Below, piece by piece: positions 2,910 through 48,018 of a DNA stretch of 64,000 nucleotides. Made by a program: the position numbers and the translations under genes. Source of the DNA: Branchiostoma lanceolatum (taxonomy: Eukaryota; Chordata; Leptocardii; Amphioxiformes; Branchiostomatidae). The first letter of the stretch is position 1. Each line of letters starts with the position of its first letter. The notes beneath the pieces are model-generated. The model had not been told where the DNA came from. It worked only from the letters and a program-made list of their open reading frames with translations, and searched no databases. The DNA lies in assembly GCF_035083965.1 (NCBI RefSeq), contig NC_089722.1, positions 19,771,142-19,835,141 on the forward strand. Reading direction: 5' to 3'.

Positions 2910-3642
2910 CCTCACTCTCGAACTTTAATGAACAAATGAAGGGTCGAATGACTGGACATGAGTGAATTCAATTTGTCTTCTGAAAAGGCAGAGCCTTATT
3001 CTCCCGCGGAAATAAAACAGATTGGAGTCTTGAAAAGAATTTGATTTATAGTTGCACAGTAATCTTTAAACGACTAACACGTTATCGTAAGATCTATTCA
3101 AATTGTTGTGACGCCATCGCTACTTACGGGTCACACTCAATTTTCGACAACAGTTTCTAGCTTAATGAATTGTTTTAAAAGTGAAAACTTTTGATGATAC
3201 ACAGAAAACAAGATAGAGGCCGGTATGATGTGCAAACATGTTTAACTTATTCCCACGTATCCCATAACGTTTCTCACACTTGTTTACCTGCAGCTGGTCA
3301 GATTATCGATCAGGCGAAAGAAAACGGCACATAGATACGCATAACAAACGTGTCTTTGCGTGATTTTTAATGATACAGCACAATTATAATTATAAGTTGG
3401 TTCATTTTCAAGATTCCAAGGAGAATCCTTGAGGTTTCCAAGTAAGTAGAGAATCTGAGCAGTCGTGTTTCTTACATGTATTTTCACCTAACGTAAACAT
3501 ATACGTTAGCTTTACAGTAGAGGAAAATTCAAGAAAGATAACTTTTTCGGAGCCTTTCTTCAAATCTCCCATCTGCTATAGGAGAGACTGATACTTTCAA
3601 CAAACTACTGTGGCATCATGATGTGTATTCTGTTTTGGATTA

Positions 3643-5590: not shown

Positions 5591-5617
5591 GACCTGAGCA
5601 TTAGACGTTACCTGAGC

Positions 5618-5767
5618 CTAGCCTCCGTTGCAGACTCCTTCCGGCTGTTTTCATTTTCTAAGTTTCAGTTTTACTATTACTTTTTTTTCTTGTTGTAATG
5701 TAATAGTATAAAAAAACAATAACTTGAAAAAGAAAACAGCCGGGAGGAGTCTGCATCGGAGGCTAAC
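5618..5767. mobile_element. 150-bp hairpin MITE
   Basis: Arms of about 35 bp: 5619-5656 (TAGCCTCCGTTGCAGACTCC...) is repeated inverted at 5732-5766 with only a few mismatches. The loop is AT-rich. No coding content. Confidence 0.6.
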
Positions 5768-5903
5768 CTGAGCCGGCGGTCCACAGTACCCAACAGTAGC
5801 ATCAGGGTTGGCAGAGCTAGAGATGAAGAACAGCGGTTCGACCATGGGACGAGCACTGTTCCACCAGCGGCAACACTCCGTTGACAGGCAGTCTTCGTTA
5901 GAG

Positions 5904-6240: not shown

Positions 6241-7740
6241 GTAGACTATGGCCCATATCAAAACTCAAAACAGACAAGCAAAAAGAAATGTATATACGGC
6301 ACAGGGATATATTGATAAAGTGACATATAAAAGCATGGATGACAGAGTTCTATTGATGTTCATATTCATATCTGTTGAGCTATTCATGTTATCGTACTGT
6401 CCTTATCTGTACATTACCAAAATGTCAACAATAGTTTCTGTATGTGATCATTTTCTCAGTTCAGACTTTGCGCAGGAATAGACGCTTTTTATGTCTTAAG
6501 TACCACAGTTATCAACCTAGGATTGATTGTTCAAATTTTCGTATTTTCCGAGAACGATAGTAAAATGGAACTTGTTGTCATCAAATACAGTAGTTGTCAC
6601 CATCCTCGACAGGTAGCTTTAAAGAACGCTTGCGGTCAGATGTGCAAAGACTAGGTGTGACAGGCCGTTCAGTGTAATATAACCAGTTTCTACCGCGCCG
6701 CGTGCCTGCGAAGCTGGTGTGTTACACCGAAAGGCGGTTAAACTTACCAGCTATATACTGAAACAGAACGAACGTACCTTGATCGACAAGACTTGGACAA
6801 AGAAAAAGACAGCAACTGCTAACATCTTGAAGCGTTTCTACAACGTTCTCTGGAATTAGGGCATAGAAAATTAAACTTGCTGTTTCTTCTGCTATTGGCC
6901 ATTAGATAATTTTCTGGTGATAAGTTGATTTGTTGGTACATAATATTGTACAGTATTTCTTTGGGGTCGGCAACGTTTCTTCAATTACAAAATGCCAATT
7001 GACGGTTTCATTGTTGTAAGTTTATCCTTTATCAATTATTGATATTGATTTATTCCATATCGCATGGCTTGGTATAGATGATATACAAACAACGATTTGT
7101 CTTGGTCCAGTCTATTTCCGTCTGCCAGAGGGCGTGTCTTCCTGTCCGCAATGTCCGGTAAATTTGTCATTCGAAGGCGAGATACTGTGGAGAGGTCACC
7201 TTGGCACCTTTATGAAGGTCACACATCTAGGTAATAAGATACGCCAGGTGTCTTCACCTCATTAACATATCAATTCAGTTTTGGTTGAAACCCTTGTTAT
7301 TCCCAGTTATTCCCTTTAGTCACTGACCAAAAAACAGCAGATGCTGTCGGAAACGTCTGACTGTTTCAATTCTTATCCCGTTGCTTGAGTAATTGTCATT
7401 TGGCGGGTCACCTTGGTCTTTTCGTAGCGACATCTGGCGAATGATTTGGATATAACAAGTCCCGGCGACACTTCTTGGCCTATCCCTAACAAACTAGTAT
7501 TCTGTCGCAATATGACATGACGTGTCAACGTTTCATCAAACTCCTAAATAACAAGCAACGATAAGGTGTTTTTTTTTCAAATTCAAAAGTTCTTCAAAAG
7601 TTAATCACCTGCCAACCGCGCCGAACATCAGCCGACCAAGCCCCCGAACCACTCCCAACCATGCTCGGGGGAAGGTCAGGAGGCTTATGTTCGGCCATTT
7701 GTTAAACCAAGGAGGTTAAATTTAACAAACGTGCTAGCCT

Positions 7741-7900
7741 AGGGCTGCGTGCGGCTATGGGTTAGAGTAATGTCCTTGCATTCGGAAGGTAGTAAGGGGT
7801 TCAAAGCCCGGCCGGGTCATACCAAAAACACTGAAAGTGCCTGCATATACATGAGAAATGCGGTTGAACCTCTTCGTTTCTACGGACCAGGTTGCTAAGG
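7741..7900 (+). mobile_element. tRNA-derived SINE (plus strand, diverged)
   Basis: A box A-like GGCTATGGGTTAGAGTAATG and a box B-like GGGTTCAAAGCCCGG are followed by GGGTCATACCAAAAACACTG, the same junction seen on the minus strand in the 5904-6240 element. Probably an older copy of the same family. Confidence 0.55.
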
Positions 7901-8665
7901 TATGACACGGAACGTTAATTAATCACAAAACTGTTAAACAGAAGACAAACGCCATTTGCTTGTAGGCTTAACTATACACGAAGGGTGATGAACATTTTCT
8001 CAGCCACACACAGAAATAAGACATTTTTCTTAACAATTGTGCCCCGAATTTTTAGTTTTGCGGATAATTTCTTGCTGAGGCTGCGAAATTATTGATCACC
8101 CTTCGTAAGTGCGTAATCCTTATAATCTCACAATCCTGCAGGCCCGCAATCCCTAAGGGGTTTTGCCGTTAATCAACTGCAAAAGGGCGCTTTTATCATC
8201 GCAAGAAACCATTCGTTTTAAGGGCTAGTCCGGTTTTAAGGGAGCTTTCAAGCTATTCCAAGCAAGGATGCTATTTTTAAAACGTTATCCTGGGAACGAA
8301 AGGGAGGGTACGGAATTTCGCGCATGATACCGTGTGAAATGTATAATTTATGCCAAAGTTCTGTGTGCAGAAAGCAAACAATGGTGATCAGGTAGTTCAG
8401 TCATGTGTCACGTACATGGTTGTCAATGGTGTGTAAGTAAATGAACAGGTTACTGATTGTGCTCACCGTCTGGAATGGTGTTCGGTTACGCGCTGGGCTT
8501 GCCAGACACCAAACAGAATAAACACGCGGGAGTTAGTGAATGACGCATGAATGTTAAGGCGCGCCTTTCCGAATCCAAACGGTGAACAAAGAACGTTATG
8601 CACATGGCCCGATCGGGTCATATTTTAACACCCATTTATGCGGAGAAAAACAGCTAAATTTCATC

Positions 8666-11600
8666 ATGCCTTTAAGGAAGAGGTGTCACCTACCGAGAAT
8701 CTTCCGGGGAGGAATGGTCCTTCTGTTTGTGTTGAACGTGGCTATGTTGTACATGGTTTGGCGCGAACGGTCCACGTATGCAGAACTACGCTTTCACCTG
8801 ATGAAGTCAACCAGTGACGTCCACGAAACGCCTCAATGGTATGTTGTTGCTATCTAATCTCTGAGCTCCAAGCAGATCTCTCGGTGGCAAGGCAGGAGTG
8901 TGGCCTCCACAAGGCCCTCCTACGGGCGTATGGATCGTAGAATTCGGCAAAAAAAGGAAAGATTAGCCAGTAGAGTCAGTCCACGGTGAAGATCACGTTT
9001 TGGTACAGGTTGGCCCTTTTGATACTGCCTCGCCGCCGATAGATCTGTTGGAGATTAGCTGCTATCGTATAATGTTAATGAACTCTTCAACGTTGTGTTC
9101 CCTTTTTGTCTGAAGCAAAATGTATCGTTTCCTTCTTTCTATAAGGGCTTGCAAGCTGTCTTACACGAGGAAATAAAACGTCTTCAAGTGATAAATACTT
9201 ATTATTATTACATTTTTTTTAATACTTTTATTTTACCATCACTAAAATAACCACCCATTCTCTTACAGCGTCGAGAAGCAGACAGCGAAAAAAGTAATCG
9301 AAGAATTCGTGGCAGTCACAACTGCAAGACAGCCCAGTAAAATACCGAGACTCAAAGTCGATTTAACAAATCAGACTTTTGGGAAAAACAATACAGTTGA
9401 ACAATTGGTACCTAGGATTGCTGTGCCAAAGAATGTGAGTAAAGGGCCTGTACCCCCATCGAAGAAGAAGCGGAAAGTTATCAAAGTTATTAAGCGAGTC
9501 GTGAAGCGTAAGAAACCTACCAATCAAGAGAAAGCCAACTTGACTGAAACAAAAACAACGGACAGCTGTGCTTTGCGAAATGCATCGGAGCAGCGTTGGA
9601 GTTTCAACAGAACAGAGGTTTTGAAAATGAGGTAAGTTACTACTCAAACTATCTCAATTAACAAATTAGTAATTATTCCGACATTAGACCTATCTCAATA
9701 GAACACAAGACAATAGTGGATCGTTTGTAATCTCAAAGCAGATGTGGGAAGGCAAAATCGTAATGCTTTCTAGCCCTCCGTTTTGGGGGATTTTCGCCAA
9801 GAGGGAAAATAAAGAAAATAATGCTTTCCGACCCTTCCCTTTAAATTCTCGAAAAAACTGGGTAGCTTGCAAGCGTTGTGATCTTGCCTTCCGACATCTG
9901 CTTGGAAGTTAGATTGTTTGGGAGGGTGTGAACATTTAGAATAAAACACAAGAAACAGACTAATGATACAAAATGACAAATTTAAAACGTAATTAGGTAA
10001 TTTCTTAATTTGCTAATATCTTAGTTAATGAAAACCTTTACTTAACATTTCCAGAAGTTATTGGTATATACGCAAAAAAAAGCTACTCAAGCAACTGGAT
10101 AAAGTTTCAAAATTTAATCCAGTTGCTTGAGTAATTGCTTTTTGACGTATCTTATAACCTGTATGTCTAACCCTCATCAACGTTATTAGTACATATTATC
10201 ATAGTTTTCTTAATAAACGTCCTGCTGTTTGTCTTGAGTTTTGAAACTCGCTGAATACAATCATTTCTACTTTCAGGAAACATATACTCAAGTTTTACAA
10301 CCCGAAAACAAATCTGACGCTAACGCAGTCCAGTTTAAAACTTGGGCAACTTTTAAGATATGAACTTCATACCAAATATAATATGAACGTGACCGAAGAT
10401 TTGTTAAAGTTGATCCCAAGGAAATCGCCTCTGATGGACCAACATTTTAACACGTGTGCAGTCGTAGGTAACTCTGGAATAGTGCTGAACAGTAACTGTG
10501 GTCAAGAAATCGACTCTATGGACTTCGTCATACGGTGCAACCTACCTCAAATAGAAGGCTACGAGAAAGATGTCGGCTCCAAGGCGAACTTAACCACAAT
10601 GAACCCATCGGTGATCCCACAGAATTTCAAAAAATGGAACAAAACGAAGAAAGATCACGATCGCCTCATACGACATCTCAGACACGTTGGCGACCAGATC
10701 GTGTACGTACCTGCTTTCACGTCTGCGTCGGGAGAGCAGTATGTGAGGGCTTTCGTACAGATTGTTCTCCAACACAAACTGCAGCTGAGGATCCGGACTG
10801 CTTTTCCACCGGCGGGACTAAACAATCTCATGCAATCGTAAGTTTAACCTTTTGGTCGCGATTTACACACAAGTTTTCGGGTCGACTCGGGGCTGTGTGT
10901 GAGGAGCTTTGGGCTACTAAAGTGGAATTTTCTACTAGAAAACGCTGCTTGAGTGGCCTAGGGTTCTCCTTGCACAGCCCTCAGTCGATTTTAAAAAGAC
11001 TAGAAAACGCGTGTGTAAATCGGGCCTTAGTTAGTAGATGGAGATGTCATCTCAATCCTATTTTCATTACCTGTGTGTACGGAGGTGCATTGTTTTTTTA
11101 TCTGTCGTTTCTGCAGTTATATCCATATGTTACACGTATACATAGGCACGCTTTACCAGTGACAGGAAGTAAAGGGCAAAAGCTCAGAGTTGCCAGTGAC
11201 AGGAAGTAAAATTCAGGATTGGTAGAATGAGTCATTGATCAACCCAGACAGACATTCCAGGTCATGGGGTCAATGGCAGAGGCTACTAATTCTTGGGGAG
11301 GTATTGTTTCTGTCTGCCTGTCTCAGTTTTTGCGGTAAATGTTTGCCATATATTAGTCATGTTCACCATAAACACTAAGTGACAGAAAGTGATCAATGGA
11401 AATGTGATGCTAATCAAAACCATATCTGCAAAATCAATACAATTAAGCAAAACACGTATGAAACTATTTCATGGAGGTACAAATGTATGAGACCTGCATT
11501 GTTGTTCTATCGAAATCATCACTGCGCGAAAGGGGTCCATTTCCGGACAAATCCGATATTGACACATCACTGGGCATGTTACATATTCGGACCGTTTCCA

Positions 11601-14600
11601 AGTACTCAAATCGATACCTAACATATTCGGAAATATTTTGATTCAAGAAATATTTCCTAGCAAATTCGGATAAATACAACTTTTTATTTTTCCGGATACT
11701 GTTCAGGGTCGTATCGTAACTCCGGATACGTGTTTCTTTATGTATACGGAGATATCTGTTGTTAAGATACTTCGGCAATCCATGTTGTATTCTGACTCTG
11801 CCGTGACAGGTAAGATATCCGGGAATGTATTGACTCCGAAAATGTTGCTATTCATTTCCGGACAAATCCAAAATTTGACACATCACTGGGCATGTCAAAT
11901 ATACGGACTATTTTCAAGTACTTATTTTGACACCTGAAATATCCGGAAATATTGTGATGCAATGAATTATTCCTAGCAAATCCGGATAAATATAGTTTTT
12001 TTTAATTTACCGGATTCTTTACGAGTTCGTATCATAACTCCGGATACGTATTTCGTTATGTATACAGAGACATCTGTTGTCAAGCGCGAAAGCGGTCTAT
12101 TTCTGGACAAAATCCGAAATTTGACACATAACTGGACATGCCAAGTATTCTGAACGTTTTCGGACATTTTGTCAATACACAAAATATACGGAAATATATT
12201 GAATCAGGAATTGTTTCGTTGCAGATCAAGCAAAATATGACTTAGGATACTTGCGGATACCGTACATGGGAGTTTCATTACTCCAAATGCGTGTTTCTTC
12301 ACATACACGAAGATATCTGTTGACTTTGTCATGACACATATCCGATAATATTTCGAATCCAAAACAGTTGCTATCTTTATTAATGCAAAGCAAGTACTGC
12401 CGATTATGTGCCATTTTAGTTTCTGTAGTCCAGGTTAAGGTATGCGTTTTACTGTACTTTCCCACATATCCGGGAATACATATGATGGCCCGCATCGCCA
12501 ACCGATGAACGCGGCGACTATTATGATGATGATGACGTTCCGTTTATGCAATATATTTCGTTCTCTGTGATAAAATAAAAAAAAATTCCAGGCAAATCTG
12601 AATGTTGAACGTGCCGCGTATTCGGACAGTTTCCAAACAGGAATTTCGACACAGCATATCGGGAAATATTCCGATTCCGGAAATGTTCATTTTTTTGTCC
12701 AGGAAATATTTTGGTTTATCTTTTGTCCGTATACGAAGCATGTTTTCTGAAGGCGTTCCGGACTCCGAAAATGACCAGAATCAAAACAGTTGTCCGGAAA
12801 TAAGTCCGGAAATGACAATCCATAGCAGAAGGGCATTGTGGGACACTTAGATTTCCGGACGTATTTGCGCGTATCATGACCAAGATACGGTCGGTACAAT
12901 AATATATGTTGCCTCTAGGAGGAGCTTTTGTCTCCGTGCTTGAAACTATCAAATCGATCAGCAAATACACAACTTCGGGTTTCTGGTAGTTCTTGAAATC
13001 TAAAAAAGAGATTAAGCCAAACAGTGACACACTTTGTGATCTTGTGCCAATCAAAGCAACTTAATTTAGATTTCCATAACCGATTTATACATGCATGTGC
13101 AAAATTGAAATACCTGCATCAATCTATTGCTAAAGCATGATATGAAGACAAGCGTGTGGCCTGCCATGGATATATATTCATATGTATATATGGGCACCCT
13201 TCCAAAACCGTACTGGCTTGGTTGTCTTCTCAGTTGGGACATTGGTATGTGCACAATTACGATAAGATCTGGCCACCAGATGGTTTGGAAAATATGCCTG
13301 ATTTCTGATTGGTCCGTTCATCTATGACGCATTCCTGGAATGTTAGCGCCAAACTTAACGGTTCCGGCAGAGTTGGAGAAAGAGCCGGGGTGAGCTGTTT
13401 CAGCGTGTGCCGGAGGTATCTGCCGGAGCCCGAGTCTCTTAACATCATATTCTCAATACGATCTGACGGAATACACCGCGAGATTCGTCTTTTCTGAACC
13501 AACTTGCAAAGACGAGGAATGACCTGCATGTACTCGGGAGTCGGGACCGAAGTGGATGGTACGAGGACAACGGGGTGCAGTGACCTCAGCGGAGCATCGA
13601 CAAGCCGAGAACACGGTAACTGAACTTCCAATATCTACAATTGGAGACGAATTAAACTAATACATACATCAGAAATTAGTAATTTCTTACTCTAGTGTGT
13701 CAATTTGCAGCTAGGAGAGTTTCACAGAAATTGTTTTCAAGCAGCTCTTCCGTGAAGCACAACAGGCCACCCACATGTATCATAATAGAAAACATGTGTG
13801 TATACGGAATATCTGTAATCAACATTTTCCCGGATACTGTTAATGGTCATTTCTTTACTCCGAATACGTGTTTCCCTCTGTGTACGGAGATATCAGGGGT
13901 TGGAATACTACAGAAATCCATGCTGTAACATGACTACAGAGAAGAGTCAATATACCTGACAAATATTAGAACTTTTCTGAATATACCTACGCCGAATATA
14001 TTAAGTTCAAGCAAAAACAACAATCCTCAGTGGTGTCGTATCGTGAAATATCAGTTCTCAGTAAATACTACGTGTTTGGTGACCTGATACTCATCATATT
14101 GAGGACTGTGACCTGGCAATGTCAGGATAATAAACATTATTTTGCTGCTGTCCTGTCGAGTTTAGTAACAAAAGGAATGTTGTGTTTCTAGCCACATCAT
14201 TTGATAAGGGTTTTTATTTTTCAATTCTTTTTAGATTTTCAGTTCGACCTTAGGATCTGTTTTAACTTAACATATCATACAGGAATGGTATTATAATCTG
14301 TTCAGTCTGTTGACATTATCTTTGACAGTACCTTGAAATAATTTAGAAATTATTCTTATGCGATCCGAAAGAAAACAGTCTTTTTTTCGTGATATTGTTT
14401 TGTTTTTGTTTTGGATACTGTACAGGGGCGTTTCGTAAGACCGAATACGCGTTGTTGATATATTACAACAACCCATGTTTCAGTTTTCTGACTATACATA
14501 GATATGATAAATATATTGACTAAGAAACTGTTGCTACCCTATGCCCAGGCAAAAGCAGTACTCCTGTTTCTTCCGTATACGTGCCACGTGCGTTTAAGTG

Positions 14601-17600
14601 GTTCAGATATGTGTTTTTCTCTATTTGCCCTTATATCCGGGAATACCAGTTTTCCGTATACAGTGTATGTAACATATTTCCTTCCTTATACGAGAAGGGT
14701 AGATTTCTAGGCAAATCTGAAGGTTACACCAAGGAGGTTAAAATAGGATATTTTTAACCTCCTTGGTTACACATGTCGCGTATATCTGGACATTTCCAAA
14801 CAAGAATTTCCACACAGCATTTTCGGAAATATTTCGACACAGGAATTGTCCATTTGCGTGTCCGGTTAATATCTTAGAATATTTGTTGTCCGTATATGTT
14901 ACATATTTCCTCATGGTATTCCGGAATCTGCGTTCCTATCTCCCACACGTGTTGCTATGTAAAAAGTCTCTCCAGCAACGCGTATTGCACCTGTACTGTC
15001 TGCCAATAAGTCCGATGCCTTTCCGTTTTCCTAATTTGTGTTTCATCCATAATGTTTCAGTGTTTCTATTACTCAACTGATCGCAAAGTTCATTGACTTG
15101 GTTTGGGTTTGTCACGAGAAGTCTACAAAGATAATGTTTCAGTTGGGCAGTATTTCAACATTGTTGGAAACATAATTTACATTTCTTTATTGAGCCGACT
15201 TTGTTCACTTTACCTTTTGCTATCGTTATTTGACCATATGCATGATCCGACTGGAATTAGACAAGGCTAAACTTTAAGTAAACAGGTATCCGGTCACTGC
15301 TGTCTTTAGTGTTGTAGACCATATTGTATTTGATTCGATCGTTGTTTCGTTGTGTCATATCACTGGAGAGGGAGGGTGCGCATGTAGTAGGTATCTCCAC
15401 ATTTAATTTATTCTAGCCACGTTTTTTTTCAGCATCTTCCGCTGAGTATATCAGGGGGTTATAAAGACAGTTCCAGTGCAGCAACATCTTTGCAGCAAAC
15501 CAACCTGTGTGACTTCCGCACGCCTATCTTGGAATAATGATATGTCTGTTAACACCTATACGTTTAAGAAGCAGTACTATTTGTATCAGAACATTCCTTT
15601 ATGTGACACGGATAACATGTTAGACCTGGTGCCTAACAAAGTTAATCAATCCGTACCGTAATTGCCGTTGCGGGTGTGCCGTAAAACGCCCAGAATGAGT
15701 AGAATCATGTGAGAACACATTGTAAATGTTCATAAGCAAACTACAACTTGAATATCCCTATGCAAAATTTGTATGATTCATACTCTGATGTATTTATAGA
15801 GGTTACAGAAGAAGCTCTAAATGTTATGATATAACTTCTGCATACATTCTATATTCATTGATTTACCGAGTAAGAGATTTGTATCATTGGTTTTCAATTA
15901 CCCTCATTCAGAATATTGACGTTATATCACGTATAGTCTCTATTGATCTTATTTCTACTTTTAATTACTTATACCTTGATTTCCAGGACTTATAACAGCA
16001 ATGTTTTGTACATATATTACCACAATTTAGACTGTTCAAGATTGTTCACTGTGTAGTAAGTTATATACCTATTTCCGCTGTTGTCGAACATCTACCGATA
16101 ACCAAATCTATATGCCTAACTTGAATCTGAATCATCAGTAAGCGTTACCATGAAACTGTTCAGATATAGGACTTAAACAATGACAGAGTGATTTAAAGTA
16201 TTCTTGCTTTTCGTATTTTCTTTGCCATGTATCTAGTATGTTTAATCTCAGATATATAATTTCAGAACCAAAAACACTCCGTATACATTGCGGACTTAGT
16301 GTTACGGATATACGTTTCCGACTATATATATTCATCGGTAAGTTGCTGGATGTCCGTTGCAGAAAGACTCCGAATACGCTGCAAAAAAGTTGGACTATCC
16401 GGGTGATATCCGGAAACAAAACTGCAGCATATCCGGATCCGGGTATGCGACGATGAAAAATGTTCCCGTTTCCAGCTCCAGATATTAATCCGTATTCGCG
16501 GTCTCTCCGTTGATAAAAAACCCGCATACGTTACCGGAAAGTCAGAATATTCGGGTGATATCCGGAAACAAAACGGTAGCATATCCGGATCCGGATATGC
16601 ACCAATGAAACATGTTCTCGTTTCCGGCTCCAGATACTAATCCGTATTCGCGGTCTCTCCGTTGATAAAAAAATCCGCATACGTTATTGGAAAGTCGGAA
16701 TATTCGGCTGATATCCGGAAACGAAACTTTAACATATTCGGATCCGGATATGTTGTGATTAAATGTGTTCCCGTTTCCGGCTTTAGATATTTATCCGTAT
16801 TCGCGGTCTCTCCGTTGTAAAAAAATCCGCATACGTTACTGGAAAGTCGGAATATTCGGCTGATATCCGGAAACAAAACTTTAACATATTCGGATCCGGA
16901 TATGTTGCGATTAAATGTGTTCCCGTTTCCGGCTTTAGATATTTATCCGTATTCGCGGTCTCTCCGTTGAAAAAAAAAATCCGCATACGTTACTGGAAAG
17001 TCGGAATATTCGGCTAATATCCGGAAACAAAACTTCAACATTTTCGGATCCGGATATGTTGCGATTAAATGTGTTCCCGTTTCCGGCTTTAGATATTTAT
17101 CCGTATTCGCGGTCTCTCCGTTGAAAAAAAATCCGCATACGTTACTGGAAAGTCGGAATATTCGGCTGATATCCGGAAATAAAACTTTAACATATTCGGA
17201 TCCGGATATATTGCGATTAAATGTGTTCCCGTTTCCGGCTCCAGATATTAATCCGTAAACTTAGGATATCGAGATCAAGAAACGTCTGAATATCGTCGGA
17301 AACGTAATATTGTCGGAAATATCCTATCATTGAAACGTCCGGAAATCGACCCTTTTCGCACAGTGCATTTTACTAAATATAATGATGAGAATCTAAACTA
17401 AATGTATTACAGAATATGGACGAATTCTGGGTTTGAAATCCTACGTCCGTCAACGGGTGTTCACATGTACACCCTGGCTGCCACCATCTGCGATCAGATC
17501 CATATGTACGGCTTCTATCCGTTCACTGAGGACTCGAATGGCAGGGCACTGCGCTACCACTACTACGACAGGAAGAAGATGATCAGCAACAGGACTCATA

Positions 17601-18457: not shown

Positions 18458-18744
18458 TCCTACACTTAGCCTGGAATCCATACCCTCGGTGCCTCCCCGA
18501 TATCTCTACGGCACTGTGAGTGACCCTCACCCGCCCAGACAGCTTAGCCCGCTCGGGGTGTTGTTTACGGCCTTGGATTAATTAGTTCGGCACCGACGGG
18601 GCGGCGGAAAAGTAGGAAGGCAGCGGAGTAGGGTGTAGCGGAAGTAGGATGGCAGCCAGAGGTAGAAAGGCCATCAGAAACTGACTGGCCCGGTAAACCA
18701 CCACTAAGCCGACCCTAGAGACTGGGACCAGGCTATCCTACACT
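18458..18744. mobile_element. hAT-like MITE with perfect target duplication
   Basis: The element 18467-18735 has ends TAGCCTGG and CCAGGCTA and is flanked by TCCTACACT on both sides (18458-18466 and 18736-18744). Eight of the nine bases would be the usual hAT duplication. The GC-rich body has no ORF. Same end type as 289-478 and 29926-30159. Confidence 0.75.
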
Positions 18745-18895: not shown

Positions 18896-21800
18896 CTAGG
18901 TTAACACTGTTCTTGGGTGAAAGTGTCTGGTGTGGCTGCCCAAGCCCAGGGCAGTGTGGAAGAGTCGAGGGCATTTTGTACAGCGCAGGGTGGGTGGAGA
19001 GCGAGGCTGGAGGAGCCGCTCTTTACGTCTCTGTCGCTTGGTTTCTTCTTTGTATCTGCGCTGGTTTTCCATGTATTCTGTCCCCAGTGTGATGCTACGC
19101 CTCCACTTAGTGCGGTCTTCGGCCAGAGTCTCCCAGTTGGCATGATCAATGTCACAGTGGAGGAGAGTGGCCTTAAGTTGGTCGCGGAAACGACGCTTGG
19201 GAGCTCCTCGCGATCTTGTGCCATGTTCAAGTTGTGAAAACAGGATCTGGCGGGGGAGTCGAGTTGCGGGCATTCTCCTGACGTGTCCCGCCCAGCGGAG
19301 GCGATGTCGTGCCATCGTAGTCTCGATGCTGGGGAGGTTTGCTCGAAGAAGGACAGCTTCATTTGTCACGAGATCTTGCCATTTGACCTTCAAGATCGCA
19401 CGGAGTTTCTGCTGTTGGAAGCGCTCCAGCTTTTTGATGTCACTCCTGTACAGGACCCACACCTCAGAGCCATAGAGGAGGGTCGAGAGGACGATGGCTC
19501 GGAACACCATGATTTTTGTATTAAGGTTGAGGTCGTGGTTAAGGAAGACACGTTTTGAAAGCCTCCCAAAAGCTGCGTGTGCAGCACGAATCCTGTTGTC
19601 AATGTCTTTCTGCGCAGTGCAGTCGTTGGAAAGGTAGCTTCCAAGGTACGGGAATGCTTCCACAGTCTCAAGGGCTTGGCCCCGGAGACATACATTGCTT
19701 GTGTCAGGAGGGGGCTGGCCCGGGGCTCCCTGTGCAAGGATCTTGGTCTTCCCAACGTTGGAGGTGAGACCAAAGCGGGAGTACGCACCATCAAAGGCAC
19801 TAACAGTAGTATGGAGGGCATCAACTGTGTCCACAGGGGTTGCGTTGTCATCGGCATACTGTAGCTCCCGTACATTGAACATGGTGGAGAGTCGGCGGGC
19901 ACGAAGGCGTCCTGTGTTGAAGAGGCCTCCATCCATTCGGCAGCGAAGTTGGATGCCGGAGGCCGTGTCAGGGAGCTCGTGGATCATAGCCCCAAGGTAG
20001 AGGGAGAAGAGGGTGGGGGCAAGAACGCAGCCCTGCTTCAGACCAGTGGTAATGGAGAAGGGGTCAGAGATTGTGTTTTTCGTCACGACGCGGCCAGTCA
20101 TCCCATCGTGAAGGGCCTGTACCAGTTCGGTGAAATGGTTGGAACAGCCATAGCGTCTCAGGGTTGCCCACATAGCTGGTCTTGGGACGCTGTCGAAAGC
20201 CTTCTCCAGGTCCCAGAAGACGAAGAATAGCGGTCGTCGTTGCTCACGGGACTTTTCCTGGAGAAGGCGAGCACAGAAGATCATGTCGGTTGTGCCACGA
20301 GAGGGTCGGAAACCGCACTGTGACTCTGGTAGGACTTCCTCAGCGACAGTCAAGAGCCTGTCTAGCAGGACACGTGCAAAGATCTTCCCGGCGATGCTGA
20401 GGAGGGAGATGCCACGGTAGTTTCCGCAGACAGAGCGATCCCCCTTCTTGAAGATGGTTATGATGGTGGCATCCTTCAGGTCTGCAGGCACAGTTTTCGT
20501 CTCCCACATACGCAGGATTATCATGAAGAGCCTGGTCTCCACAACTTCCCCCCCATGAGCGATGAGTTCAAGCGGGATGTTGTCGGGACCTGGGGCCTTC
20601 CATGCTTTCATGCGTTTCAGCGCCTTCTGGAACTCTGCGTAGGAGGGAGGGAGTGACATCCAATGCCTGACCGGGTGTTGGGGTACCTTACGGAGCAAGT
20701 CGTCAGCCGCGGTAGATGGGCGATTCAGGAGCACCTGAAAGTGTTCTTTCCACCTTTTAAGGATGGCTTGGTCTTCTGTAAGGGTGGTTATTCCGTCGGC
20801 AGACAGAAGGGTGTTGGTACCTCCACGTCGAGGACCAAAAATTTCCTTGGTTGCAGCGTAGAAACGCCGGAGGTCTCTACTGTCAGCGTAAGACTGGATT
20901 TCTTTTGCTTTATCTTGCCACCAGAGATTCTGCAGCTCTCGGAGCCTTCGCTGGCACTCCTGCTTTGCCTTCTTGAAGCGTCGCAGGCAGGCGCGGGTGG
21001 GGCGATTTTCCCATGCGAGGCGGGCAGATCTCTTCTGGTTGATCAGCTCTTGGATACTGGCGTCATTTTGGTCAAACCAGCCTTGATGGGACCGCCTGCA
21101 GTACCCGACTGCGTCTTCTGCAGCCTTGCTGATGTTGTCGCGGAACACAGACCAGTCCGCTTCTACAGAGTCTGGCTGTTGCGCCGGGGGTGGAGTCTCA
21201 CCCAGGAGCTCTGTAAGACGATTGGCGTAGTCTTCCCTAACTTCAGGAATCTTCAGCCTTGCGACGTCGAAGCGACGTGCCCTCTTTGCCGGTCTGTTGT
21301 GGCGGGGAAGGTTACGCAGTCGGAGTCTGAGGCGACTTATGAGGAGTCTGTGATCTGTCCAGCAGTCATCTGCACCGGGCATGCTGCGGGTCACAAGGAC
21401 ATCGCTCCGGTCACGTGATCGGGTAAGGATGTAGTCAAGGATGGTCCAGTGCTTTGACCGTGGGTGTTTCCAAGTCGTCTTATGACGATTTGGGAGCCGG
21501 AATAGGGTATTAGTGATAACAAGTTCATTTTCAGCACATAGGCCAAGGAGGAGAAGCCCGTTGGAGTTGCAGGACCCAAGGCCCTGGTTACCAAGGATTC
21601 CCTCCCAGAGTCTGTAGTCGCGACCGACTCTGGCGTTGAAGTCTCCAAGCACAAGGAGCTTATCTCTGCTGGGGACAGCTTGGATGATACTGTTCAGGGT
21701 AGCGTAGAAAGACTCCTTAACATCATCCTCAGAGTCAAGTGTTGGTGCGTAGACAGAGATTAGAGTCAGGTGGTTGTTGTCAGGGAGTGGCACGCGTAGG

Positions 21801-22024
21801 GTCATGAGGCGTTCGTTTATGGCGGTTGGGACCAGGTTATAGCGATTCACTATCGACGTCCTTACCGCAAAACCAACACCATGGATCCGCCGCTCTTTAG
21901 CATCCCTCCCTTTCCAGAAAAAAGTGTAGTTGGTTCCAACTTCGGAGAGACTTCCCTCTCCGGCCAGTCTTGTTTCAGAGAGGGCAGCAATGTCTATGTT
22001 AAAACGATCGAGCTCCCGACTCAT
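18896..22024 (-). CDS. RTE-like LINE ORF: endonuclease plus reverse transcriptase, 1042 codons, intact
   Basis: The protein has an N-terminal APE-type endonuclease (LSETRLAG, then VYAPT, LVLGDFNARVG and TDHRLLI, residues 1-240), a central reverse transcriptase (GNYRGISLLS, CGFRPSRGTTD, FWDLEKAFDSVPR, GLKQGCVLAPTLFSLYL, LQYADDNA), and a C-terminal region (SRGAPKRRFRDQL, NWETLAEDR) ending in a CxxC-x12-HxxxxH finger (CTKCPRLFH...HTRHFH). There is no frameshift or stop. The ATG is preceded in frame by NIRT, which resembles the WNVRT motif that normally opens such endonucleases, so the true N-terminus may start upstream inside the monomer array or be lost. Similarity of the APE and post-RT text to RTE/BovB-type elements is from memory; clade is tentative. 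Long plus-strand frames across it are shadows. Confidence 0.9.
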   Translation of the reverse strand: MSRELDRFNIDIAALSETRLAGEGSLSEVGTNYTFFWKGRDAKERRIHGVGFAVRTSIVNRYNLVPTAINERLMTLRVPLPDNNHLTLISVYAPTLDSEDDVKESFYATLNSIIQAVPSRDKLLVLGDFNARVGRDYRLWEGILGNQGLGSCNSNGLLLLGLCAENELVITNTLFRLPNRHKTTWKHPRSKHWTILDYILTRSRDRSDVLVTRSMPGADDCWTDHRLLISRLRLRLRNLPRHNRPAKRARRFDVARLKIPEVREDYANRLTELLGETPPPAQQPDSVEADWSVFRDNISKAAEDAVGYCRRSHQGWFDQNDASIQELINQKRSARLAWENRPTRACLRRFKKAKQECQRRLRELQNLWWQDKAKEIQSYADSRDLRRFYAATKEIFGPRRGGTNTLLSADGITTLTEDQAILKRWKEHFQVLLNRPSTAADDLLRKVPQHPVRHWMSLPPSYAEFQKALKRMKAWKAPGPDNIPLELIAHGGEVVETRLFMIILRMWETKTVPADLKDATIITIFKKGDRSVCGNYRGISLLSIAGKIFARVLLDRLLTVAEEVLPESQCGFRPSRGTTDMIFCARLLQEKSREQRRPLFFVFWDLEKAFDSVPRPAMWATLRRYGCSNHFTELVQALHDGMTGRVVTKNTISDPFSITTGLKQGCVLAPTLFSLYLGAMIHELPDTASGIQLRCRMDGGLFNTGRLRARRLSTMFNVRELQYADDNATPVDTVDALHTTVSAFDGAYSRFGLTSNVGKTKILAQGAPGQPPPDTSNVCLRGQALETVEAFPYLGSYLSNDCTAQKDIDNRIRAAHAAFGRLSKRVFLNHDLNLNTKIMVFRAIVLSTLLYGSEVWVLYRSDIKKLERFQQQKLRAILKVKWQDLVTNEAVLLRANLPSIETTMARHRLRWAGHVRRMPATRLPRQILFSQLEHGTRSRGAPKRRFRDQLKATLLHCDIDHANWETLAEDRTKWRRSITLGTEYMENQRRYKEETKRQRRKERLLQPRSPPTLRCTKCPRLFHTALGLGSHTRHFHPRTVLT

Positions 22025-22760
22025 GGTACGGATGTTATATTTGAGATGTAGGTACCTATAGGAAAGGTGATTACACCTGACAATTACTTATGCTAATGAG
22101 GACCTAATTCGCATAATGTATGCATAAAGTTGTATGTCCCTTACCGTAAATGCTGCGGATGTCATCTTTGAGATGTAGGTACCTTTAAGAAAGGCGAACA
22201 CACCAGGCCATAAATTATGCTAATGAGGACCTAATTTGCATAATCGATGCATGAAGTTGTATGTCCCTTACCGTAAAAGCTGCGGATGTCATCTTTGAGA
22301 TGTAGGTACCGTTAGCAAAGGTGATCACACCTGGCCATTAATTATGCTAATGAGGAACTCATTTGCATAATGCATGGATAAACTTGTATTTCCCTTACCG
22401 TGACAGCTGCGGATGTCATCTTTAAGATGTAGGTACCATTAGGAAAGGTGAATGCACCTAGCCAAAAATTATGCTAATGAGGACCTCAAACTTGTATTTC
22501 CCTTACCGTACAAGCTGCAGATGTCATATTTGAGATGTAGGTAGCTTTAGGAAAGGTGCACACGCCTGGCCATGACATATGCTAATGAGGACCTCACTTG
22601 CATAATTTATGCATGATGTTGTATTCTTCTTACTGTAAAAGCTGCGGATGTCATCTTGAACATGTAGGTACATGTAGGAAAGGTGAAAGCACCTGGACAT
22701 AATTTATGCTCATGAGGACCTCATTTGCATAAATTATGCAGAAACTTGGATTTGCCCAGG
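22025..22760 (-). repeat. Tandem 5' monomers of the LINE (about six, ~126 bp)
   Basis: GGATGTCATCTTTGAGATGT recurs near 22030, 22157, 22283, 22409, 22518 and 22645 (spacings about 126, 126, 126, 109, 127). The copy nearest the ORF runs into the start codon. Most units contain ATGCTAATGAGGACC followed by ATTTGCAT, the complement of the POU octamer ATGCAAAT, and on the minus strand CGGTAAGGG. Tandem promoter monomers are known at the 5' ends of some LINEs; the function here is inferred. Confidence 0.85.
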
Positions 22761-29400: not shown

Positions 29401-31815
29401 AGGACTATAGGAACAAAACCACGTAACACAAGTACTAGTATTCTGAGTATTTTCAACTCCTTCTTTTTACAGGAAAAATGTACAAAAACAGAAAATCAAT
29501 ATGGACGCCACAAAGACATTCCAATACACATCTTACAACATTATGCACAGCTTGTATCTTACAGACGACTCGTGTTTACTTTTTAAATACAATAATTCAA
29601 ATCATGTCAAATGATCATTTCCCATACGCCGATTGGAAACCATATCATCGGGACCTTCCCGGCGTCTCTGCGGCGTTGGGAGTGGTACCCGCCACCCAGA
29701 CAGATTGGCCCGCTCGCTATAGTTTGCTCCCGCTACGATGGCGGCGAAACTAAAGCTAAGAAGACGAGCTATCAGAACGGTTCAATATAGCACACTGGGT
29801 ACAGTAAAACACACCTAAGCCGAGGAGTAGAGACAAGATACCAGGCAAACCTCCTTGGTACACCATATATGTTATCACAAGAATATCCTTGGTTATCCAT
29901 GCAACTTTTAGAGTACTCTGAAACCTATAGCTAGCCAGGGTGCCAGACCACCGCGCTCCTGGCGCTAATCCTTCGGCCGGGGAAGCAACTCGCGCCGCCG
30001 CCACAGATAGCACACGGCCCACTAATTATCGCCAGCACGATAGAAATCAGGGTTCGGCTGCCAAGCGCTCCCAGGTGCCAACTCTATCCCTACTACTAGG
30101 TCTTCCCCGCCCAGAAGGGCTTATCATCGCATCGCGCGAAAGGTCTGGTATCCAGGCTATCTGAAACCCATACTATTGCCATGGCCTACACGTACGTACA
30201 AAACAGCTTGTCTGGTGCGCCCCTAACTCTCTTACCCTGGAGAAACCCGACTAGGGACCGGGCTGCTAGCGAGTCTCTTCGGCGGTCCTAGACTGTCAGC
30301 CCGCCGGATCTAAATTAACACTACGGAGATTTGTAGCCCGGGGAGTGGACCGTGCCTTTTACCCGCAAGGACCGGTCAACTCTCGGGATTTTTTAGAACT
30401 CCCCCGGTGCGGTAATACAATTTCTATCGGCGGGCTTAGAGCTCTGGGCCGCCGACTGAAAGGGCGCGATAACAGTCTGGATCCCAGCGATCTAAACCGT
30501 CATAGTATCATTCGCATTCGGTAATATTATTTTCGATCCTACTACTACCCAACAGAAATTTGTTTAGTCCTTTACAATCCTAAATTTATTAATGATTTTT
30601 GTTAAGTGACGAACACAAAGTCACAGCAAATAAAGATCATTTGCCTATCACAGTTCCGTGTAGTTCACACACCGTGGCTTATAATGCGTGAGCTAAAGCT
30701 TATTGTTATCTACCCGGCAGGGTCACACGCGAGTGTGCAACGCCCTGGGAATCAACGCACAGCTAACTGTGCATGAAAACGCAGAATTTTCCCGGTAGGC
30801 ACACGCCGGACCCGGAAAACTCTTCACACTTCCTGCCCGCCTAGGTTTTAACGGACGTGCGCAGACTCGGAAAGAACCGGAAATCTGAGCTTTCACGCAG
30901 TGATAGAACACCAACAAGAAGCTGATCATGAAGTGAAGAAAAGATTTACAGCTTTGTTTTAAGAACTGCTGGGACTACTTGTCTTACCCCATTTGCGTCT
31001 TCCCAACTCCCGGTGCACCACAGAACTCTGTGATCTTGGTGAGAGGCACCCCTCCCCCTAGGAGCTCATCCAGAGCTGAACAGAATGTGATGATACAGCC
31101 CTGCTCTCTTTCCTCCTGTAACATGTCCAGGGCCGTTTTCACTCCATCGTCAGGGCTCGATGCGGAGGAGGGATCCTTCTGTTCTCCTTGGACAACTCTC
31201 AAAACTTCAAGAGCTTCTTCTGGAGATATCTTGAGTTCTAGTGACAAAATCATACCATAATATGATTATTATGATTTGCTGAGTGTTGTTATATACAGAA
31301 AATGAAATAACTTGAAAAAGGGCGCAAATTTTCCTTGTTGTGTTTTTTTCGTGATACCATGTACATGTATGTGTTTGTGTATGTATAACTATAGTCGACT
31401 TGTAGATTTGAGTATGCATGTGCAGTGTCAAAGGTGACAGTCCCTGAGACAACAAAACCTGTCGAATAATAAGCACTCTACGCAAGTGCAGTGTCAAAGG
31501 TGAAGGCCCCTGGCTTGTAAACAAATTATTTTTGACCAAAACATGTACTATGTATTATGACAAATTGGCAAAGTGGTCTGTGTAAAATCTTTCACTGCAA
31601 CCAAGGTCAAACCTCCTTGCTGCAACCATCGATTAAATCTGGACTCCATTTATCAAGAATCGAATTTACCGCCAAAAGAAGAAGTCACCCTCCCCACCTT
31701 TGCTCAACTCGACTGGCTTCACATCCTCTAAGTCTTCCACTGTGGAAAATCCCCCGGCTAGAAGTTTGCTCTTCAGGTAGGGAGGAAGGGGATACGAGCC
31801 GATATGGCGCGACAT
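23473..31815 (-). CDS. RAD51C: RAD51C, homologous-recombination RAD51 paralogue, 9 exons, 333 aa
   Basis: Nuclear RecA-fold ATPase of the BCDX2 and CX3 complexes, acting in double-strand-break and crosslink repair. Exons (high to low): 31815-31698, 31237-30988, 26851-26685, 26425-26292, 26013-25882, 25101-25026, 24490-24430, 24031-23971, 23592-23473. All have GT-AG ends, phases join, and the sum is 1002 nt. Start [14 protein letters not shown]; an HhH-like N-terminus ([13 protein letters not shown]...VELSK); Walker A GAPGVGKT (exon 2); [12 protein letters not shown] (exon 3); Walker [15 protein letters not shown] (exon 5); NQMTTK and [16 protein letters not shown] (exons 6-7); [16 protein letters not shown] (exon 8). 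The C-terminus has KRPRV, a basic nuclear-localisation-like end. The nine exons match the vertebrate gene's count. Intron 2 (4.1 kb) is MITE-rich. Head-to-head with the SEZ6-like gene. A frame extending upstream of MSRH uses no ATG and was not chosen. Confidence 0.96.
24847..25015. mobile_element. MITE (ATAAGCC...GGCTTAT) beside RAD51C exon 6
   Basis: The ends ATAAGCCTGTTCACTGTTTG and (complement) ATAAGCCGGTTCACAGTTTC are inverted. Inner arms are GTCAAAGGTCAAGGCCCC and GGGGGCCTTCAACTTTGA. The element ends 8 bp from the exon 6 donor (forward 25024-25025). Related copies or fragments: 31415-31520, 41313-41398, 49022-49216. Confidence 0.7.
25150..25235. repeat. Short palindromic repeat (CTCAAGCAACTGGAT family)
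   Basis: AAGATACGCCACAAAACAG, then TTACTCAAGCAAC and its inverse GTTGCTTGAGTAACTGTTTG. Same family as 10073-10150, here in RAD51C intron 5. Confidence 0.6.
26145..26260 (-). mobile_element. Possible tRNA-derived SINE remnant in RAD51C intron 3/4
   Basis: On the minus strand ACTGGTCTAGACCTTTTAGC and GGATTCTATTCCCGGGAG resemble box A and box B of a tRNA-type promoter with spacing of a tRNA head. Diverged; no poly-A or tail confirmed. It lies between RAD51C exons 4 and 5. Confidence 0.35.
27522..27740. repeat. Direct tandem duplication, two ~108-bp copies
   Basis: CGTGCAGCTATAGGGAAA, then GTCCTG, CCAGTGAAC and GCATAATTTAGCGACAATTA each occur twice in the same order. In RAD51C intron 2. A C15/A8 homopolymer run follows at about 27780. 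Confidence 0.85.
28345..28560. mobile_element. hAT-like MITE, degenerate, in RAD51C intron 2
   Basis: Ends TAGCCTGTTTACCAG and (complement) TAGCCTGGAAACC are inverted. Flanks (TTCACACA / CCCACACA) only weakly match. GC-rich body without ORF. Confidence 0.5.
29917..30168. mobile_element. hAT-like MITE with 9-bp flanking duplication
   Basis: TCTGAAACC flanks both sides (29917-29925, 30160-30168). Inner ends TAGCCAGGGTGCCAGACC and (complement) TAGCCTGGATACCAGACC. More GC-rich, MITE-like DNA lies on either side (29632-29850 and 30185-30500), so much of RAD51C intron 2 is transposon-derived. Confidence 0.65.
31595..31625. repeat. 19-bp micro-insertion with 6-bp target duplication
   Basis: CCAAGGTCAAACCTCCTTG (31601-31619) lies between two copies of CTGCAA (31595-31600 and 31620-31625). 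It has the same ends as the palindromes at 14729 and 47948. It is in RAD51C intron 1. Confidence 0.65.
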
Positions 31816-35300: not shown

Positions 35301-38300
35301 CGCGCGTTGCTTGGTGGCTAGCCGATATACGGTGCCTGGCCCCCAGGGTAAGGGAAAATAGGCCAAGGAAAGTTTTAATGTGTATAGGCTTGTTTGACAA
35401 GCCATAGACATACCAAATCAATGCACAAAAACGTGGCTACTCATCTATAAGTTCACCTTTACTCGGGGCTGTCTCCAGCTTTGAATTTTTTCTGTCCCAC
35501 TCATTGGTAGAGATCCAATGTTTTACTTTTTGTTGTTAAGTCATTTTCATCGAATTTATGTCATGAAGTTCCCATTTTTGGGACGGACGGGGTGAGTTTT
35601 TTTCCGTCCCGACAAGCAAATTTCTGTCCTGGGATGGAGAAACGGGTCCTGGAGACAACGCTGCCTTTACTGTAATATTTGTTCACAGCACTGGGTTGTC
35701 TGCCGGACCCGTCCCCAGGACGGAAATCTGCTTGTTGAGACCACGGAGGCTTATTCTAACCTCCTTAAGCTTGTTCAGACATACAAAAATTACACCCTGT
35801 CTGTCCAAAATATCTTAGCTGCATGACATGAAAGTTAAAAGATACTTTCCTAAGTTTAAAAAGATGACAACAAAAATCAACAACATGTCAGCTCTCAACA
35901 ATGAGTGGAAGGGAAGCAAGATACAACCCTGATGTGCAGCAGGGCTCGAAATACTGGGTGCATGTGCACCTGTGTGCACCCAAAATTGGAGCTGTGCACC
36001 TGATTTTAACTGTGGGTGCACCAGTGCACCTAGATATTTTTGTAGGCTATAGAGTAAAGGTACTATTGTACACTAGTATACAGAATATTATTGAAATGTA
36101 AGTATCAGAAATAGGAATATGTAACCTTTTGTTGTACTTTATTTGATATATTACTTGTTTGAAATTTTTAAGGTTAGCTATAGAACTACAGATTGAAGTT
36201 CTTAAGAGCGTTAAACTTTATTCTATGTGGAGCACCCCAAATTCTTTCTGTGCACCTAATTTTTTGGGTTGGGTGCACCAGTGCACCTATTTCCAAAAAT
36301 GAATTTCGAGTCCTGTACTGTGACAGATATTTTTGATGTTGACTTGGTCCACACAGCCCAGCCCGTCCCAGCTGTGGCCTGCCCTGACCCAGGAAGCCCA
36401 GATTACGGCAGTCGCGTTGGTGGTGACTTCCGCCCAGGTTCCACCGTACAGTTCTCCTGTGACGACGGATACACCTTGTACGGTAACGCCTCGCTGACCT
36501 GTACCGATGGATCCTGGGATGCTCGCTTGCCTACCTGTAAAGGTAAGACGAAGTGATTTACACCTTTTTGATTACTGTAAATCTTGAAATATTTGCAGTG
36601 GTTTTAGTTTCACGCAATCTGAAAACTTGAACCACAGCGAAAACGTCCCCTTCTCTCATACTGCAAAATTGAATCCCTGCAAAAATAGATTGTTGTATAT
36701 TTTATGAGATGTTATGCGCCCAAATTTTTTCTGTGCAAGGTAGTATTTTTAGGTTAGGTGCTTCACTGCACCTGTTCCCAAAAATGACTTAAGAGGACTG
36801 TTTAGAAATTGAACTTTGTTATAGAATTTCTGGCATCCCCTCTAATTCAATCAATGTCCAGCTTTGATTAACTGCACGTAATATTATGTGTAGTCCTGTA
36901 AATCTTGAAAGGTTTGCCATGGTTTTCTCAATGACCTCTCCACTAATCTTTGAGAAACTACCAATATGCCTTTCCAATGTACTACATGTACTACTGAACT
37001 ACAGAATCGTTTCAACAGCGAACTCAAAACAACGTAAAAATCTCTTTTTCCCCTCTACTTGAATTTACTCACGAAAGTGTTTACCTTACCTTTCTACAGC
37101 GGAGTGTGGAGGAAACATCACCAATGCCACCTCAGGTGTGATCCTCTCACCTGGCTATCCCGACAGGTACACAGCTAACCTGTCCTGCACCTGGAGTCTA
37201 TCTGCACCTGAGGGCACGTTACTCCAACTCATGTTCAACAACTTCTCGCTGGAAGATGGAAAGGACTTCCTCTGTAAGTTGAACGTAGTAATGTATTACT
37301 TTTTTGTAGTAATTGTTTAAACCTGGAACTTAAAAGCATGAACTTAAAACAAGACCACAGTATGTCTAGGACCAAAGATACAAAAATGGAAGTTCTGCTG
37401 CAGTACCATGGTCAACCACCAGGAGGCCTAATATCGACTTTGGCAGTCGGGTCCACAACACCTACATGTACCCACGAACCAAATATCATTACAATCCATC
37501 CAGAGGTTCTTGAGTTATTGTGCCAGACATGCACACACACACACACACACAAAGACACAAAGACATGCATGCATGCATGCATTTTTCATGGAGGTAATTA
37601 TTTAGTCCATGCAAAAATGAATGGATTAACAGTTACGGTAGCTAATTATTTCTGTTGCCCACAGATGCGAATGATGAGAACAGGCCAGATGACCAGCCAG
37701 AGACAACCCTGACCGGTAGTACAGTACCAGCCAACTGGCTAAGCTGGACAAACAACGTGGTGTTACAACTGGTCACTGGTGCAGATGCAGGCATGGGAGG
37801 CTTCTCACTCGCATATGAAAGTAGGTGTCCAATATGAACCCACATTGTCCTATAGCCAGCATCACACAGTCGACTAGCTTCTGCCATACTAGTTGACTTA
37901 ACACTGTAAAGACCTCTTTCTCCGAAGTTCCTTCTGCGAAATTAAGTTCCTCAACAGTAAATGAATTGACTGCCTATTTTTCTTATGATAACAGGCATTC
38001 CAAAAACCTTCTGTCGTGACCCTGGCCCAATTCTCCACGGAGTTAGCACTTCCGCCGAAGTCCTCTACTCCGCGGGACAGTCTGTATCGTACAGCTGTGA
38101 CGCTGGGTACCAGTTGCTAGGCAACACGACCCTCACCTGCCTGCAGGGCAGACAGCGTATCTGGGATGCAGCTCCCCCTGTCTGCTATGGTGAGGAACTG
38201 CAGCATTATTTTGACTCTTGGTGAAGTGCTGCATGTATCCCAGGTTTTTTTCTAGAAAAGTTAAACAATAGGGAGCACACACAGGCGAGGGAGCAAATTC

Positions 38301-45760: not shown

Positions 45761-45959
45761 TGACAAATGCATCTAAGTTGCTATTACTCTCCAAGCAGAG
45801 GAGTGGTTCCGGCTGGTTTTTGACGTGTTTTTAGACGTTTTTGTCGGGCTTTATACATTGTCATGTTTTTTGTCTCACCAAACCACTAAAAACACTTCAA
45901 AAACCAGCCGGAACCACTCCTCTGCTTGGAGAGTAATAGCAACTAAGATGCATTTGTCA
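45761..45959. repeat. Near-perfect 199-bp hairpin (2 x 73 bp) just after the SEZ6-like stop codon
   Basis: The left arm from TGACAAATGCATCTAAGTTG to GACGTGTTTTTA is repeated inverted to TGACAAATG's complement at 45951-45959. I count two mismatches over 73 bp; the spacer is about 53 bp. It starts 68 bp after the stop codon at 45691-45693, so it should be in the 3' UTR. Probably a young MITE. Confidence 0.85.
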
Positions 45960-47941: not shown

Positions 47942-47981
47942 TCTATACCAAGGAGGTCCTATTTTAACCTCCTTGTCTATA
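47942..47981. repeat. 28-bp palindromic micro-insertion with 6-bp target duplication
   Basis: The element 47948-47975 begins CCAAGGAGGTCCTATT and ends TTAACCTCCTTG, between two copies of TCTATA (47942-47947, 47976-47981). Read on the other strand it matches the 37-bp copy at 14729 with 9 bases deleted. Confidence 0.75.
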
Positions 47982-48018
47982 CATTAAAATGCTTAATGTT
48001 GTTGAGCCTAGTATACAC

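Follow-up and report, generated by a model that had tools for sequence, protein, structure and literature searches.

The window analysed here, a 64,000-nucleotide stretch of the Branchiostoma lanceolatum genome (NC_089722.1, positions 19,771,142 to 19,835,141 of the forward strand), resembles animal DNA, with Pfam matches in four of eight open reading frames (ORFs) that include sialyltransferase, CUB and Sushi domains and a reverse transcriptase of the long interspersed nuclear element (LINE) type. It contains three very short inserts of the form CAAGG...CCTTG, each of which is bordered by a perfect 7-bp direct repeat with a sequence of its own (GTTACAC, CTGCAAC and TCTATAC). That the three inserts go back to transposition with duplication of the target site is well supported, and we favour, with moderate confidence, the reading that they represent footprints left by the excision of a single family of cut-and-paste DNA transposons resembling the P superfamily.

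Three palindromic inserts and their flanking repeats

The inserts lie at 14723-14772 (locus 1, GTTACAC-CAAGGAGGTTAAAATAGGATATTTTTAACCTCCTTG-GTTACAC), 31595-31626 (locus 2, CTGCAAC-CAAGGTCAAACCTCCTTG-CTGCAAC) and 47942-47982 (locus 3, TCTATAC-CAAGGAGGTCCTATTTTAACCTCCTTG-TCTATAC), where an earlier sequence-only reading had placed all three of them. That reading had described duplications of 6 bp; the repeat common to all three loci is 7 bp long, the 6-bp version was dropped, and the insert lengths of 37, 19 and 28 bp that went with it become 36, 18 and 27 bp. When 7 rather than 6 bp are taken, both ends of the inserts become one inverted repeat, CAAGG...CCTTG. One extra base (G) can be counted into the repeat at locus 1 only, giving 8 bp, which is impossible at loci 2 and 3. 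Each of the three 7-mers terminates in AC. The two copies of the duplication are identical at 21 of 21 positions over the three loci, and the events are therefore probably young.

Insert 1, for which a single-strand fold gives a z of -7.8, consists of 19 nt of one end (A) joined directly to 17 nt of the other end (B). In insert 3, read on the minus strand, the same 19 nt of A, with which copy 1 begins, are joined directly to 8 nt of B, confirming that this copy is opposite in orientation to copy 1, and insert 2 is composed of 10 nt of A, 3 filler bases and 5 nt of B. The three clean loci have three different internal joints, and the joint of a decayed relic at 35742 (4 mismatches in 26 positions) matches that of insert 3 within 1 nt. 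The earlier proposal that the copies differ only by central deletions is correct for copy 3, which lacks 9 bp of copy 1, but not for copy 2, in which three bases (TCA/TGA) do not come from copy 1.

Perfect duplications at three loci had been judged very unlikely to occur by chance, and a comparison within the window bears this out. CAAGG and CCTTG are found 10-60 bp apart six times, with perfect 7-bp flanks in three cases and 2, 6 and 6 flank mismatches in the others. When all 5-mers and their reverse complements at the same spacing are considered, the window contains 5,356 pairs and only four cases of perfect 7-bp flanks, three of which are the CAAGG pairs, while every other 5-mer accounts for at most one. 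A scan for inserts of 12-60 bp with arms of at least 5 bp and a duplication of 7 bp yielded 4 cases, whereas 20 third-order Markov sequences averaged 0.25 and never exceeded 1. It should be noted that the same scan gave an excess also for duplications of 4 bp (17 versus 8.6) and 5 bp (9 versus 3.15), and thus the Markov null underestimates the background, and more weight belongs to the 5-mer control within the window. For a comparison outside the window, exact palindromes CAAGGAGGTT...AACCTCCTTG with the same 10-nt ends were drawn from contigs of prokaryotes (30 stretches) and viruses (three); a flanking 7-bp repeat was present in none of the 33, each having at least four mismatches in seven positions, and perfect flanking repeats of 6, 8 or 9 bp were likewise present in none, although some of these palindromes are near-duplicates and the independent cases number fewer than 33. 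A narrower scan of the viral contigs gave no match.

Excision of a P-like transposon as the proposed origin

The perfect, fixed-length duplication adjoining fixed ends points to a DNA transposon whose target cuts are staggered by 7 bp. The favoured reading joins the observed duplications, shared ends, target-motif fit and stub lengths to a superfamily, an enzyme, an excision step and a parent element, which we infer. A longer element with the ends CAAGGAGGTTAAAA... would have entered a GT...AC-like site and duplicated 7 bp. Its transposase would later have removed it by a cut at the very end of the element on the 3' strand and one about 17-19 nt further in on the 5' strand, and would have left a single-stranded stub of the terminal repeat on each flank. 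The cell would then have filled in or trimmed both stubs and joined them, and the joint would be a short palindrome between the target duplications, since the two stubs carry one sequence in opposed orientations.

Such a course of events corresponds to what is described for the Drosophila P element. The P transposase is described as cutting precisely at the 3' end, the cut on the 5' strand falling 17 bp within the inverted repeat (PMC7776569), and nonhomologous end joining after P excision retains the overhang sequence between the target duplications (described in PMC3878927). A P-type scar is therefore expected to consist of two stubs of the same end, each not longer than about 17 nt, back to back. 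At the three loci, the longest stubs are 19 and 17 nt long, compared with a staggered cut of about 17 nt, the B end being defined from insert 1 itself. End joining can add filler bases, and Drosophila P-element footprints contain filler bases as well as partial stubs.

The target sites offer a further comparison. In Galileo, a member of the P superfamily, duplications of 7 bp with the consensus GTANTAC or GTATTAC lie in the palindromic motif AANGT...ACNTT, and the motif of P and 1360 is ANAGT...ACTNT (both reported in PMC4168063). These motifs were taken from that paper and not fitted on the window, and the P values come from triples of sites drawn at random from the window. The inferred empty sites of the three loci match the Galileo motif at 7, 4 and 5 of 8 positions (sum 16/24, P 1e-4) and the P/1360 motif at 5, 5 and 4 (sum 14/24, P 0.0012), and GT...AC within the duplication alone scores 4, 3 and 2 of 4 (sum 9/12, P 0.0004). 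The 7-mers next to three half-copies of the end (GTTAAAC, GTACACC and TTGAGAC) score 7/9 on the GT...AC test when the selection-biased C is excluded (P 0.0017).

Two traits of the P superfamily are found at all three clean loci, namely a duplication of 7 or 8 bp (here a perfect 7 bp) and terminal inverted repeats starting with CA, the latter by comparison with one published P-type end: the CA...TG ends of the inserts recur in the zebrafish P-type element Pdre2, CATACCTGTCAAC (PMC10983969). The likeness to known systems is partial in each case. Like P-element excision footprints of Drosophila, as described, the inserts would combine target duplications with retained overhang sequence of a staggered cut, 17 nt deep in Drosophila, joined by nonhomologous end joining, but the duplication is 7 instead of 8 bp long, stub A reaches 19 nt, and the putative scars are seen alone. 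Galileo shares the 7-bp duplication, the GTANTAC-like preference and the palindromic target motif AANGT...ACNTT; its inverted repeats are described as long and internally repetitive, a difference from CAAGGAGG. Zebrafish Pdre2/THAP9 is a chordate representative of the P superfamily with short inverted repeats starting with CA, yet it has an 8-bp duplication and the different end sequence given above. The P-type miniature inverted-repeat transposable elements (MITEs) described in Anopheles gambiae are non-autonomous units with P-type ends and duplications, whereas the units found here total only 18-36 bp. In amphioxus itself, the LanceleTn MITEs are short elements with inverted repeats, a likeness by description alone. 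An element 'LanceletTn-2' is named in PMC5802833.

Relics, neighbouring elements and the search for a parent

The coordinates of the inserts, their possible relatives and weaker candidates are collected in Table 1.

Table 1. Inserts, flanking duplications and further candidates in the window (positions within the 64,000 nt)
Position	Strand	Feature	Remark
14723..14729	+	Target-site duplication of insert 1, left copy, GTTACAC	
14730..14765	+	Insert 1, putative scar, 36 bp: end A 19-nt stub, end B 17-nt stub, no filler	B read from this insert itself
14766..14772	+	Target-site duplication of insert 1, right copy, GTTACAC	
31595..31601	+	Target-site duplication of insert 2, left copy, CTGCAAC	
31602..31619	.	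Insert 2, putative scar, 18 bp: 5-nt and 10-nt stubs, 3 filler bases	A/B naming of the stubs arbitrary
31620..31626	+	Target-site duplication of insert 2, right copy, CTGCAAC	
47942..47948	+	Target-site duplication of insert 3, left copy, TCTATAC	
47949..47975	-	Insert 3, putative scar, 27 bp: end A 19-nt stub, end B 8-nt stub, no filler	
47976..47982	+	Target-site duplication of insert 3, right copy, TCTATAC	
35742..35767	-	Probable decayed relative of insert 3: A 18 nt, B 8 nt, 4/26 mismatches	Not a clean 7-bp duplication
7701..7726	+	Possible broken relative: GTTAAAC, 13 nt of end, TTTAAC	No right end
29848..29864	-	Possible single end (10 nt), then GTACACC	No matching left side
3410..3438	.	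Weak candidate AAGATTC-CAAGGAGAATCCTTG-AGGTTTC	Flank mismatches 2/7; within chance
29871..29898	.	Weak candidate GTTATCA-CAAGAATATCCTTG-GTTATCC	Flank mismatch 1/7; within chance

The half-copies at 7708-7722, 29846-29856 and 35738-35760, which had been taken as a hint of further members, are of unequal value: those at 7708 and 35742 are plausible old relatives, and that at 29848-29857 is weaker. The relic at 35742 is flanked by GCTTGTTGAGAC (start 35730) and GCTTGTTCAGAC (start 35769), a 12-nt repeat with one mismatch, which is longer than 7 bp and not fully explained. As a duplication this repeat is suggestive only, because the window contains 90 flank pairs of the same quality outside tandem arrays (overlapping registers and the relic itself counted). 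The tally excludes the weak candidates at 3417 and 29878, since 20 third-order Markov sequences yielded between 0 and 4 matches of equal quality each. Additional CAAGG ends with a neighbouring 7-mer that recurs nearby, mostly with one mismatch, were tried as single-end scars and dropped as background; the test is uninformative, with a control rate of 1,963 in 42,563 that is inflated by tandem arrays. An exact copy of CCAAGGAGG at 21543, absent from the earlier list, is located within the reverse-transcriptase frame and is probably a chance occurrence. The window has a long LINE-type ORF of 1063 codons without a stop at 18896-22087, with endonuclease and reverse-transcriptase domains.

Longer elements with the ends of the inserts were sought in the window. 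None of up to 8,000 bp was found when the 5-mer ends were required to be exact and the flanks to measure 6-9 bp. When up to three mismatches were allowed in the ends and one in the flanks, 15 candidates of 61-20,000 bp emerged from 10,563 pairs, which is not above chance (14.2 expected). A pair at 7708-14765, flanked by GTTAAAC and GTTACAC, was rejected as a long element and put down to both sites matching one target motif. A scan for inverted repeats of 61-1,500 bp with arms of at least 8 bp gave no case with a 7-bp duplication in the window; it recovered, among a few others, three ordinary MITE-like elements with 9-bp duplications, and is thus able to see normal elements. These three are 147, 269 and 291 bp long (5610-5774, 18458-18744 and 35051-35359), have the perfect duplications ACCTGAGCC, TCCTACACT and AGGGAAAAT and the ends TAGCCT/TAGCCTGG/TACCCTGG, and possibly form one family. 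Other repeats of the window include an element-like structure at 42886-43590 with perfect 36-nt inverted ends that carry TCGCGAT motifs, 633 nt lying between the arms; a perfect inverted repeat of 60 nt around a 5-nt centre, with TGAA/ATTC runs (53014-53138); an inverted repeat with 80-nt arms, 95% complementary and 39 nt apart (45761-45959); and satellite-like tandem arrays with units of 152 bp (16386-17257), 127 bp (22029-22740) and 93 bp (54508-55024).

In the literature, matches to the end sequence together with 'transpos' contained no such element by title or start of the abstract. A CAAGG...CCTTG family is not described among the matches listed for amphioxus MITEs and superfamilies, lancelet P elements, 7-bp duplications, and scars or solo repeats, as far as their listed text goes; Repbase was outside the scope of this survey.

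Weighing of the explanations and implications

Several points weigh against excision footprints of a P-like transposon. The clean loci number just three. Stub A is 19 nt long, two more than the Drosophila cut, and is common to two loci; either the enzyme cuts deeper, or repair added two bases at both sites. The agreement of the 17-nt B stub with the cut depth is suggestive only and not independent, B having been defined from insert 1. The motif signal resides mostly in the right half-sites and in insert 1, sites 2 and 3 fitting in their left halves at 1 of 4 positions each (counted by hand), and because the superfamily was chosen after the length of 7 had been seen and three related motifs were tried, the motif tests are not fully independent. 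The exact end at 21543 has the neighbour CATAGGC, which scores 0/3 on the half-copy test and brings its total to 7/12. The parent element was not seen in the window, and Pfam, applied to eight of 20 listed long ORFs, four of which had a match, gave no P-type transposase, the rest of the window not having been searched for THAP/P domains. The ratio of scars to elements, three to none in 64 kb, is high. Since P elements favour nearby targets, about 50-150 kb away (according to PMC7776569), the cluster could stem from serial local hops of one element; the alternative would be thousands of scars genome-wide.

The ends and duplications would also be accounted for if the units of 18-36 bp formed a micro-transposon family, cut and pasted whole by a transposase supplied in trans, which we consider unlikely. 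The perfect duplications at three loci would be explained, and insert 3 equals insert 1 minus a clean central deletion of 9 bp. The chief argument for a mobile 27-bp unit, which counts against the footprint reading, is that insert 3 (A19 + B8) and the relic at 35742 (A18 + B8) have nearly one joint and could descend from such a unit. That this unit would itself have been moved by a P-type transposase, with two recognition ends of which one is 8 bp long, seems distinctly improbable. If true, it would to our knowledge be the smallest transposing DNA known. Mosquito P-MITEs are described with P-derived ends of less than 100 bp, below the Drosophila minimum, but Drosophila P requires ends of at least 138 and 216 bp (both in PMC1562414), compared with 18-36 bp in total here. 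The 18-bp unit, with arms of just 10 and 5 bp, looks too small to be moved by a P-type transposase, which makes a micro-transposon less likely, and cuts 17 nt deep from both of its ends would run past each other and destroy the unit. The lengths of the arms are in keeping with a deep staggered cut that was repaired by end joining, and the filler bases of insert 2 are of the kind that end joining can leave. Of the family of self-moving units proposed earlier, transposition with duplication thus remains and the micro-units that move by themselves are disfavoured. The second option of that proposal, in which the inserts are what is left of a larger element after loss of its interior, comes close to the footprint reading, which places the loss at excision.

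Aborted homology-dependent repair leaves internal deletions. Longer elements might have been shortened by aborted gap repair after excision and not by direct end joining. PMC3878927 describes homology-dependent repair following the excision of P, and the remnants would retain both ends and the duplications. Widely varying end lengths would be expected in this case, and no stub longer than 19 nt occurs at the three clean loci or the 35742 relic, which renders these remnants rather improbable. The length of the duplication alone does not fix the superfamily, and Dada, for example, makes duplications of 6-7 bp. Footprints or tiny derivatives of Dada, of an unnamed group or of some other superfamily whose duplications measure about 7 bp are nevertheless given a low probability, as both the target motif and the CA...TG ends fit P. 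According to PMC3878927, Tc1/mariner leaves overhangs of 2-3 bp and piggyBac none, whereas stubs of 5-19 nt of both ends are retained here, and the 'random footprint' of hAT at its hairpinned flanks would not be expected to keep such stubs. A chance origin of the palindromes, or their retention as stem-loops with a role such as protein binding, in either case beside coincidental repeats, might be suggested by the 33 prokaryote and viral palindromes with the same 10-nt ends, and also by the window itself, where seven CA...TG inserts of 10-45 bp have exact 7- or 8-bp flanks and five of them lack inverted arms, the other two being inserts 2 and 3 (insert 1 was left out by a rule excluding extendable flanks). 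However, a flanking repeat accompanies none of the 33, near-duplicates included, as opposed to three of the six CAAGG pairs, and an origin of this kind is extremely improbable.

If the inserts are indeed excision footprints of a P-like transposon, scars can outnumber the transposon that made them, and a rare or vanished P-type element could be read from its footprints alone, which would record its end sequence, the length of its duplication, its target preference and the depth of its cut. Scars of this size could readily be mistaken for small indels. The duplications are identical between their copies, the heterozygosity of amphioxus is described as 3.2-4.2%, and empty and filled alleles may persist in other haplotypes. 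All three states of a site, empty, filled and scarred, may still be segregating, in which case natural variation would reveal how deep a new P-type transposase cuts.
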